Source: Pleurostoma richardsiae (lineage: Eukaryota; Ascomycota; Sordariomycetes; Calosphaeriales; Pleurostomataceae). Taken from it: DNA of 64,000 nucleotides. The stretch is from NCBI GenBank assembly GCA_030052745.1, contig JANBVO010000018.1:496001-560000 (forward strand), read 5' to 3'. Shown in pieces: positions 49,132-51,184 of this stretch (positions are counted from its first letter, which is position 1; every line of letters begins with the position of its first letter). The notes under the pieces are model-generated. The model worked only from the letters and a program-made list of their open reading frames with translations, made no database searches and was not told the DNA's origin. The position numbers and the translations under genes are program-made.

Positions 49132-49724
49132 ATGAAGACGACTCAGCTTGCCCTTGTGTTGGCCATAGCCAGCGCAGCCATCTGCGCCATTGTTGCTCCT
49201 TCGGCTTCGACAGCAGATATCACCGGCACAGCGCTGACTGCCGGCATCACAACTGCCCCAGCCCTCGAGTCGGCAGCGACCCTTGATCCTAGAGATGACA
49301 TCGACATATCCACATATGCCCGTGGGATAGACATCTCAGAACTCCCCCAGTGTTATGTAGGCTCCCAACTTTGAGGACTATACCGATCCACGATGCTGAT
49401 TTGAGTCCCTCTGTAGCAAACGTGCATGTTCACGGACAGGTGGGACAAATTCGACCCGATAAACCTGGCGCCGGAGAAGTTTTGCAACAGGAGGATGATC
49501 ATCACCTGGCAAAACGACTATTGGGGTCCGTGTGTCAAGAAGCACTGCCAGCTCATAGGCTCCGGTGAGTGAAACTGGAAGGATTCGCCTAAGGCCACTT
49601 GAGCGCGATTGCTAAAACCAAGATAGACGTCATGGAAGACTGGTACAAGAAGACTTGCCCAAGTGTTCGCAGATTTTACGTAGTTGCTGTGGCCACATTG
49701 GTCAAGCCCTTTGACGATGCATGA
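49132..49724 (+). CDS. Small secreted cysteine-rich protein, CFEM-like (copy A)
   Basis: The exons 49132-49356, 49417-49564 and 49627-49724 encode 156 residues. A signal peptide (MKTTQLALVLAIASAAICA) precedes an Ala/Thr-rich linker, the motif DIDISTYARGIDISELPQC and a Cys-rich domain. Cysteine spacing from Cys74 is C-x3-C-x19-C-x15-C-x4-C-x15-C. The first (P-x-C-x3-C) and last (C-x4-C-x15-C) parts match the CFEM consensus, but the central C-x-C pair is absent. CFEM proteins bind haem or serve as cell-surface or effector proteins in fungi; the assignment here is inference. The DPRD stretch could be a Kex2-like processing site. A convergent paralogue (copy B) lies 0.85 kb downstream with introns at matching positions and an identical 148-nt middle exon length. 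Confidence 0.7.
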
Positions 49725-50568
49725 GCGGAGGGTGCCGCCATACGAGACGACATCTGCACCGGGACCTGGGACATCTGATTGTGGAGGACAGATCCCTGGT
49801 GGGATGGAATGTCCCATCCATCCATAACGGCTATTAGACAGCTTGTCTGTGAACGCGACGTCAGAAACTGCAGGCGATGGTCGGACAGAGATACCAAGCA
49901 CTCACAATCGCTGCAACGTACTTGGGGCAAGGCCCTGTAGGTTCGGTCAACAGGTCTGCCAACTGGCATGTTTCAGTTGCGATGAGGTGTGGCAATCTGG
50001 GTCGAGGAGCCATTGCCATCAATCGCGCCGAAGCCTGTAACACCGTCTTTATGCAGGTTAGCCATCGCACAGGCAGCTTCGTATTTCTAAAAGGTGTTGT
50101 CGAATTGACTGACATCCCCATCGACGGGACTCTAAGATAACCATGGCTGTACCATGTTGGAGCTTCGCACGGAGGCTAGTGGTGGACTGACAGTGGAGAG
50201 CCGTCGGCCTTCGCTTCGTAGGTGACCGAGACTGTGACGTCCAAACGCTTCGCTTGAGCTTCACGATCGCAGCGTTATGGATGGTCCAGGTGTGTTGTGG
50301 TCACTTGTCAAGGTACTCTGGTTGCTGAGAGTGACCAGATGTAATAGTGCCGCTTGTGGGGAGCTTGTACTGATGAAAGGATATCGAAGTATAATGGCAC
50401 GTCCACCAGCCGGCTAGGTGAGCGAGGCAGCGTTCTTGGCCGAAAGCATTCCCATAGATCTCTTCCAAGCTTACGTGACGGGGGACTTGGAAGGGAATTA
50501 CCAGATCACGGCCAGACGGCCACTGGTCGAGGTTGATAAGCGAGACTTGCGTCTGTCCTCCAGCCTTT
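49725..50568. other. Spacer between the convergent secreted-protein paralogues
   Basis: The frames on both strands were searched for a third copy by looking for WDKFD and EKFC blocks; none was found. A minus-strand open frame at 49861-50121 has no recognised domain. Confidence 0.5.
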
Positions 50569-51184
50569 CTATGTCGTGAACACCCTTCCAGACTCTTTTG
50601 GACAGGTTTTCCAGAACCACTCTCTGGCCGCTGCGCAGATGTCAGCTACAGGATCCCAGTACCACAGGACGTTCATGCGGAGGCACTTACCGGCATTGCC
50701 TTCGGGGCAGTTCTCATATACGCACGGCCCGAGATAGTACGACTCCCAGTAGAAAAGCTTTTGCGGGTCGCAGAATTTTTCTGGCGGCAGGTTTATTACG
50801 TCGAACTTGTCCCATCTAGCCGTGAAGAAGCACATTTGCTATGGTAGATACTGTGTTAGCAATTCCCCGCTGTCGACACGCTCGGCAGGGGGGCATGTAA
50901 CGTACGTGACATTTCGGGAGTCCAGCCAGATCTATACCCCGTCCTGCGTACGTAGATATATCGATGTCCTCCCTGGCCTCAAGAGCCGCTCCTGTTTCGC
51001 GAGCCGCAACACTGATGAAGCCTGGAAGTGTTCTGGTCCCAGTGATATAATACTGACGCGGCCGACTCGTCGTAGTGGGTTCAAGTGTTCTCGTGCCAGT
51101 GATGTAGTATCGGGATCCCGGCATGGCTGCGGAGAGTGCCGAGCTGGCCATGGCCAGGGCTGCGATAATTGTATTAATCTTCAT
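50569..51184 (-). CDS. Small secreted cysteine-rich protein, CFEM-like (copy B)
   Basis: The exons 51184-50906, 50838-50691 and 50630-50569 encode 162 residues. After a signal peptide (MKINTIIAALAMASSALSAA) there are two copies of YYITGTRTL (residues 26-34 and 45-53) absent from copy A, then REDIDISTYAGRGIDLAGLPKC and a domain with C-x3-C-x19-C-x15-C-x4-C-x14-C spacing. WDKFDVINLPPEKFC and GPCV align with copy A. The second intron (60 nt, GTAAGT donor, GCTGAC branch point, GCGCAG acceptor) is a multiple of three and has no stop, so retention would give a 182-residue form with one extra cysteine. Convergent with copy A. Probably an extracellular or effector-like protein; function unknown. Confidence 0.7.

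Follow-up and report, generated by a model that had tools for sequence, protein, structure and literature searches.

Two small, presumably secreted proteins encoded tail to tail in the genome of Pleurostoma richardsiae raise the question of whether a cysteine pattern that resembles the CFEM domain at both ends, but not in the middle, reflects descent from CFEM proteins or a chance likeness. The CFEM consensus is defined by eight characteristically spaced cysteines that include a C-x-C (PMC4530338), and the mature parts of these two proteins, A and B, and of a third that we describe below, C, have six cysteines and no C-x-C. The genes for A and B lie in the window analyzed here, a stretch of 64,000 nucleotides (contig JANBVO010000018.1, positions 496,001 to 560,000), where a first-pass annotation had proposed that they belong to an unnamed, CFEM-derived family.

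A convergent gene pair and its third paralogue

The gene models of A and B are as follows, with positions numbered from the first letter of the window.

49132..49356, plus strand: gene A exon 1, encoding a presumed signal peptide, a pro-region that ends in L-D-P-R, the DDIDISTYA arm and P-x-C1-Y
49357..49416, plus strand: gene A intron 1, 60 nt, phase 0, after codon C1+1, a site common to 9 of the 16 canonical CFEM genes examined here
49417..49564, plus strand: gene A exon 2, 148 nt, holding cysteines 2-5 of the six
49565..49626, plus strand: gene A intron 2, 62 nt, phase 1, in codon C7+6 (CFEM numbering)
49627..49724, plus strand: gene A exon 3, with the final cysteine, the C-terminal tail and the stop
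50906..51184, minus strand: gene B exon 1, encoding a presumed signal peptide, a pro-region (YYITGTRTL twice, L-E-A-R at its end), the EDIDISTYA arm and P-x-C1-H
50839..50905, minus strand: gene B intron 1, 67 nt, phase 0
50691..50838, minus strand: gene B exon 2, 148 nt, holding cysteines 2-5 of the six
50631..50690, minus strand: gene B intron 2, 60 nt, phase 1, which happens to be open in frame
50569..50630, minus strand: gene B exon 3, with the final cysteine and the stop

Over 156 aa, the splice model of gene A agrees fully with the public P. richardsiae protein NKR23_g6424, which is an annotation and not RNA evidence; the splice sites of B, of C and of the canonical CFEM genes were likewise read from GT-AG and reading frame rather than from RNA. 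The mature cysteine spacing is x3, x19, x15, x4, x15 in A and x3, x19, x15, x4, x14 in B, and a seventh cysteine of A lies inside the presumed signal peptide. With the cysteine spacing, the 148-nt middle exon and intron phases 0 and 1 all matching, the paralogous pair is real, and the shared DIDISTYA, WDKFD and INL.PEKFC blocks on which it had initially been recognized are indeed common to both proteins. The tail-to-tail layout was borne out as well, with A on the plus strand, B on the minus strand and 844 bp between the two stop codons.

Two minor features were seen in gene B. Its pro-region contains two 27-nt copies, 57 nt apart and 85% alike, that encode YYITGTRTL (51026-51109), for which A has one similar ITGTALT and C no obvious counterpart. 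In addition, retention of intron 2 (50631-50690) would preserve the reading frame, and a database fragment, P0003, is such a read-through prediction.

A genome search with mature A found a third paralogue on another contig (C53).

L015:4606-5199: gene C, with exons of 237, 148 and 62 nt, encoding a 148-aa protein

Gene C has the B-type cysteine spacing, the 148-nt middle exon and the intron phases of A and B. In exon 2, A and B agree at 25/49 amino acids and at 92/147 nucleotides, and C matches A at 17/49 aa and B at 16/49 aa. The repeat of the pattern in a third gene, together with the exon 2 identity of A and B, means that the likeness of A and B exceeds chance. Residues invariant in all three include D-I-S-T-Y-A, R-G, L-P-x-C-x3-C, F-T, D-x-I-N, P-C-x4-C and W-x2-K-[TS]-C-P. 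When mature A, B and C were each run against the genome at E values up to 10, no gene other than these three was returned.

Judging from these identities, A and B are the closest pair, as would be expected from a local duplication. A clear nucleotide trace of the inverted duplication proposed in the first-pass annotation is missing outside the coding exons (best blastn E 0.11). Since the similarity outside the exons is gone, the duplication does not look recent. For exon 2 of A and B, the NG86 method gave a dN of 0.38 and a dS of 2.34, while LWL85 gave 0.39 and 0.71, and over a longer stretch NG86 yielded no dS; the two genes agree in 27 of 49 third codon positions, where 15.4 (SD 3.1) would be expected. 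As the estimates disagree, we conclude nothing about selection between A and B.

Comparison with CFEM profiles

When the mature domains were compared with the Pfam CFEM model (PF05730), A scored 16.5, B 17.4 and C 14.2 bits, all below the cut-off of 22. Nevertheless, of 24,736 Pfam models CFEM ranked first for both mature A and mature B, so the profile search proposed with the first-pass annotation singled out the expected domain for these two without bringing any score to the cut-off. Mature A and B each match the model in two stretches, the better one at profile positions 40-65, and with full-length A a match also appears at the beginning of the profile (positions 2-13). Mature C aligns over positions 2-65, but an unrelated model, ARM_KNTC1_1st, outscores CFEM at 17.3 bits, and CFEM is absent from the Pfam matches of full-length C.

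The genome search for CFEM domains gave 17 matches, and 15 of them were spliced and combined into a local profile (L003 and L020 were left out; L002, L006 and L019 end before C8). Against this profile A scored 16.4, B 14.9 and C 12.3 bits, with A and B aligned at both ends and C throughout. Among 1000 shuffles in which the cysteines were held fixed, none reached the score of A, none that of B and one that of C; when the LPxCxxxC block (C1-C2) was also kept, the counts were 2, 2 and 1. An earlier profile built from all 17 domains unspliced (with the stops in L006 replaced by X) separates A less well, with 24, 0 and 8 of 1000 such shuffles reaching the scores of A, B and C, respectively. Comparing profile with profile, hhalign gave a probability of 68.8% for the A/B/C family against the local CFEM profile, which was reached by none of 200 Cys-fixed column shuffles, the best of these standing at 15.2%.

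In the motifs themselves, A, B and C resemble CFEM proteins (PF05730, e.g. Csa2 of Candida albicans) at both ends. The P-x-C-x3-C of the CFEM start, P-x-C-[A/G]-x2-C, is present in all three, including an invariant Pro two residues before C1, with Y, H and Y at the A/G position. At the other end, where CFEM proteins have C-x3-4-C-x15-16-C, the C-x4-C is kept and the last gap is x15 in A and x14 in B and C. They further resemble CFEM proteins in being presumed extracellular, in their intron positions, which recur in CFEM genes of the same genome, and in the helices that low-confidence models predict at the expected cysteines. They differ in having six cysteines, no C-x-C, no axial Asp and a Pfam score below the cut-off. 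The earlier proposal of an unnamed family is supported for three genes, none of which has a Pfam match above the cut-off.

Intron sites compared with those of canonical CFEM genes

Of the 17 CFEM matches in this genome, 16 could be anchored on their cysteines for an intron table (L020, which has no anchors, was omitted). Nine of the 16 have a phase 0 intron after the residue following C1, two codons before C2, and intron 1 of A, B and C occupies exactly this site. Among the remaining genes the frame is continuous at this point in six and L003 was not resolved; a spurious candidate in L018 was disregarded. A phase 1 intron in codon C7+7 is found in 8 of the 16. Intron 2 of A, B and C is also in phase 1 and lies in codon C7+6, one codon away, and the C7-C8 gap of B and C is likewise one residue short. 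The other eight CFEM genes either have this intron at a different site (L001), read through to C8 (L003, L004, L008 and L023) or offer no candidate (L002, L006 and L019). Among the eight with intron 2, a read-through alternative also exists for L007 and L024, and L016, L021 and L022 have two acceptors per donor, which were picked by eye.

The two positions at which introns interrupt the CFEM lineage, C1+1 in phase 0 and near C7+7 in phase 1, are thus both occupied in A, B and C, the first identically and the second one codon off. Since A, B and C share ancestry, we count this coincidence as a single event, and the chance of one exact match and one in-phase match within a codon, over approximately 195 nucleotide positions, is very roughly 1-2 in 10,000, a figure that assumes even placement of introns and leaves aside the background rate in other secreted proteins. 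Except for the cysteine anchors, this evidence is independent of residue similarity. In Sclerotinia, the exon-intron layout of CFEM genes is reported to track their phylogeny (PMC13030711). Among the open-licence papers listed for CFEM introns and for six-cysteine forms, no mention was seen of these intron sites as markers, nor of the A/B/C family.

It could be argued that A, B and C form an unrelated family of secreted six-cysteine proteins that came to look like CFEM proteins through convergent cysteine spacing. The Pfam scores below threshold, the poor structure models and the lack of a CFEM match by fold are what such a family would show; the profile scores above those of the Cys-fixed shuffles, and introns that coincide with those of canonical CFEM genes, exactly in one case and in phase within a codon in the other, are not. 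We therefore consider convergence improbable and descent from CFEM highly probable, the shared intron positions being our main reason for accepting it. The CFEM-derived origin suggested for the pair at the outset is accordingly supported, mainly by the introns together with the profile comparison.

Missing cysteines and the haem-ligand column

The loss of the central C-x-C had been noted from the start, and the motif is indeed absent; yet one of its two cysteines has probably been kept. In the 15 of 17 canonical domains that could be tabulated for spacing (L006 and L020 are left out, and the cysteines of L008, which has a C-C doublet, were assigned by hand), the gaps are 16-22 for C2-C4, 12-16 for C4-C6, 18-24 for C2-C5 and 10-14 for C5-C6. 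The x19 and x15 of the family fit both canonical ranges only if the third cysteine is C4, which would make C3 and C5 the lost ones; if it is taken as C5, the x15 gap is one residue too long. The profile alignments also put the third family cysteine at C4. On this spacing the family has probably lost C3 and C5 or, as a possible alternative, C3 and C4. Compared with the commonest local CFEM form, A, B and C have five more residues between C2 and C6.

Losses of cysteines in pairs have precedents. MbCFEM4 and MbCFEM11 of Marssonina brunnea are reported to be without the third and fourth CFEM cysteines (PMC9684206) and resemble A, B and C in having lost two central cysteines and kept the others, but they are seven-TM proteins with a recognized CFEM domain, whereas A, B and C are short and have no Pfam match above the cut-off. 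The N-termini of the C. albicans ferric reductases, for which a CFEM fold has been proposed despite little sequence similarity, are described as having six of the eight CFEM cysteines and three of the four disulfides (PMC9635878). These, in contrast, are located inside ferric reductases, and their ligand position is taken by Asp in four and by Asn in six. Elsewhere in the P. richardsiae genome, the CFEM match at L020:1001-1186 lacks C1 and C7 by our reading of the alignment, the same pair reported missing from MbCFEM10 (PMC9684206); paired losses of this kind may hint at bonded partners.

Anchoring the third cysteine at C4 also sets the column of the haem ligand, three residues before it. This column holds Asp in 9, Asn in 5 and Leu in 1 of the 15 canonical domains, and in the favoured alignment A and B have Glu and C has His; were C5 the anchor, the residues would be Ala, Pro and Pro. 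The axial Asp that ligates ferric haem is thus missing from A, B and C, which leaves the canonical haemophore mechanism without its ligand, though the Asp is not present in every CFEM protein. As a separate observation, all five CFEM domains beside Fung_rhodopsin (L016, L017, L019, L021 and L022) have Asn in this column, and Asp occupies it in nine of the other ten domains in the table; for Fusarium graminearum, the Asp was reported in seven out of eight receptors of this kind (PMC6459559).

As coordination of iron by Glu or His is possible in principle, A, B and C can be imagined as natural, ligand-swapped CFEM haem binders that differ in redox preference, with one disulfide fewer and an arm that replaces the handle of Csa2. 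We regard this as very improbable. The Asp-to-His form of a Candida protein is reported to bind both ferric and ferrous haem and to be inactive in vivo (PMC9635878), so a natural His form would need a purpose other than the Candida relay. If Glu and His do sit at the haem-ligand site, the family would be a natural test of how this site sets redox preference.

A possible receptor origin for the family

Another route to short six-cysteine proteins would start from a PTH11-like receptor with a CFEM domain: loss of the membrane part would leave a soluble ectodomain that perhaps carries ligands for receptors of this type or acts as their decoy. The five CFEM loci listed above that adjoin Fung_rhodopsin, four of which have both introns, speak for this, as does the report of seven TM regions in MbCFEM4 and MbCFEM11, proteins that are without two of the central cysteines (PMC9684206 Table 1). 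The intron structure is not specific to receptors, however, since L007 has both introns and no listed Fung_rhodopsin neighbour, and the ligand column separates the five receptor-type domains, with Asn, from the family, with Glu or His. A regular-expression scan for six-cysteine domains with the family spacing at 30 Fung_rhodopsin loci (of 71 matches) gave six hits, none of which follows a splice acceptor and all of which were judged random; among all hits in the loci scanned, only A, B and C are preceded by AG at the expected place. A receptor origin thus seems unlikely to us, and we continue with descent from a CFEM gene as the preferred reading.

Genomic surroundings and iron uptake

The first-pass annotation had placed the pair next to a siderophore-type transporter. 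Three ORF pieces at 45.8-47.4 kb on the minus strand do match transporter models, and the nearest ends 1.8 kb before gene A, but the models matched are MFS_1, TRI12 and Sugar_tr only; an MFS transporter is therefore present, whereas its siderophore type is not borne out. The adjoining fourth ORF piece, at 45.4-45.8 kb, matches nothing. Further neighbours in the window include a sugar transporter, an amidase, a cytosine/purine permease and a glycosyltransferase 28 domain.

The neighbourhood bears on the idea that A, B and C are haemophores like Csa2/Rbt5, taking up iron together with a siderophore transporter encoded nearby. CFEM descent and an MFS transporter on the minus strand near gene A would fit such a role. 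Against it stand the absence of the canonical axial Asp from all three proteins and the transporter pieces themselves, which have no siderophore-carrier assignment. Nor was there a transporter among the 11 of 19 listed ORFs scanned in the 9.9 kb around copy C, where a DHHC match below the cut-off was the only one. Finally, a scan of the window with the iron-response GATA motif found no perfect site and 8 with one mismatch, against 19.5 expected, so that such sites are not enriched. To a haemophore role in iron uptake we give little credence.

Secretion, maturation and predicted fold

Secretion of A, B and C is suggested by a hydrophobic N-terminus. The maximum of the Kyte-Doolittle average over 12 residues in the N-terminal region is 2.7 in A and 2.2 in B, starting at residue 6 in both, and in C the peak is weak (1.6, compared with 1.5 elsewhere in the protein). 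Each protein has L-x-x-R once, directly before the conserved arm: LDPR in A, LEAR in B and LDTR in C. This motif has been employed to find effectors processed by Kex2 (PMC8528282), and A, B and C share with these K2PP effectors a pro-region closed at its putative cleavage site by L-x-x-R, one of the motifs (KR, RR or LxxR) that define them. They depart from them in that A and C have Asp at P3 of the putative site, a residue reported as unfavourable for Kex2 (PMC8528282). If cut after L-x-x-R, the mature proteins would be 102 (A), 91 (B) and 95 (C) residues long. The conserved arm would then occupy the position of the N-terminal handle described for Csa2 (PMC9684206, PMC9318983).

The comparison of predicted structures with CFEM that had been suggested earlier yielded models of low confidence. 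Two AlphaFold runs, with alignments of 3 and 4 rows, had mean pLDDT values of 47.8 and 48.1. Both models, at this low confidence, show helical segments that cover C1-C2, precede cysteine 3, run from cysteine 3 to cysteine 5 and precede cysteine 6, an order of predicted helices that is compatible with CFEM; the confidence is too low for the models to test the fold. Foldseek with either model returned no significant match and no CFEM structure, and a search of the PDB by sequence returned nothing relevant.

A proposed origin and function

The gene models, the paralogy, the spacing, the intron positions shared with CFEM genes, as read from splice sites, and the profile similarity above controls are directly supported. 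We favour, with some reserve, the explanation that A, B and C are a family of secreted, CFEM-derived pro-proteins that has lost two cysteines, and the fold, disulfides, cleavage, secretion and function that we infer for it would be as follows. An ancestral CFEM gene would have given rise to this small family of secreted pro-proteins, from which the signal peptide would be removed and the pro-region probably cut off after the invariant L-x-x-R, a Kex2-type site. What is left, 91-102 residues that begin with the conserved arm (DISTYA...RG), would fold as a CFEM-like helical domain with three disulfides instead of four, C3 and, as the likelier second, C5 having been lost. It would then work outside the cell as a ligand binder or a host-directed effector.

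This last step, in which A, B and C act extracellularly as CFEM-derived ligand binders or host-directed effectors rather than as canonical, Asp-ligated carriers of ferric haem, we put forward only tentatively. An effector role is plausible by analogy with Verticillium dahliae, where the two CFEM proteins with Asn for Asp are those reported as suppressors of immunity; the eight cysteines were reported as required for this suppression (PMC8867779), so that a six-cysteine form need not have kept it.

The family seems to be an unusual branch of the known CFEM proteins and not wholly new. Counts of CFEM proteins commonly rely on the domain profile and the eight cysteines (e.g. PMC8867779, PMC4530338). 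A, B and C illustrate that likely CFEM descendants can fall below both criteria and yet stay recognizable by the positions of introns within the domain. If these intron anchors work in other fungi, they would offer a cheap route to hidden secreted proteins derived from CFEM.

Distribution and annotation

Searches of 5.8 billion proteins, at E values up to 10, returned nothing beyond A and two gene B fragments, and the family is apparently lineage-restricted. A alone gave 1 match from 236 candidates, the A-B-C profile 3 from 6529, and residues 70-160 of B 1 from 5; these searches depend on shared exact words of 5 residues (at most 100), so distant relatives or those in sister species may escape them. 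The B query did not retrieve B at full length, nor did the profile search retrieve C, so both appear absent from public annotation, though A is annotated. The two fragments are the following.

P0002: gene B fragment, source jgi, on a contig of 1,406 nt
P0003: gene B fragment, on a contig of 1,798 nt

Compared with gene B of the window, P0002 has Val for Ala in the LEAR site, which keeps LxxR, and the difference in P0003 is Val for Met before the second cysteine, which may be no more than a start codon. Since both fragments differ from the window, a variant strain seems to exist.
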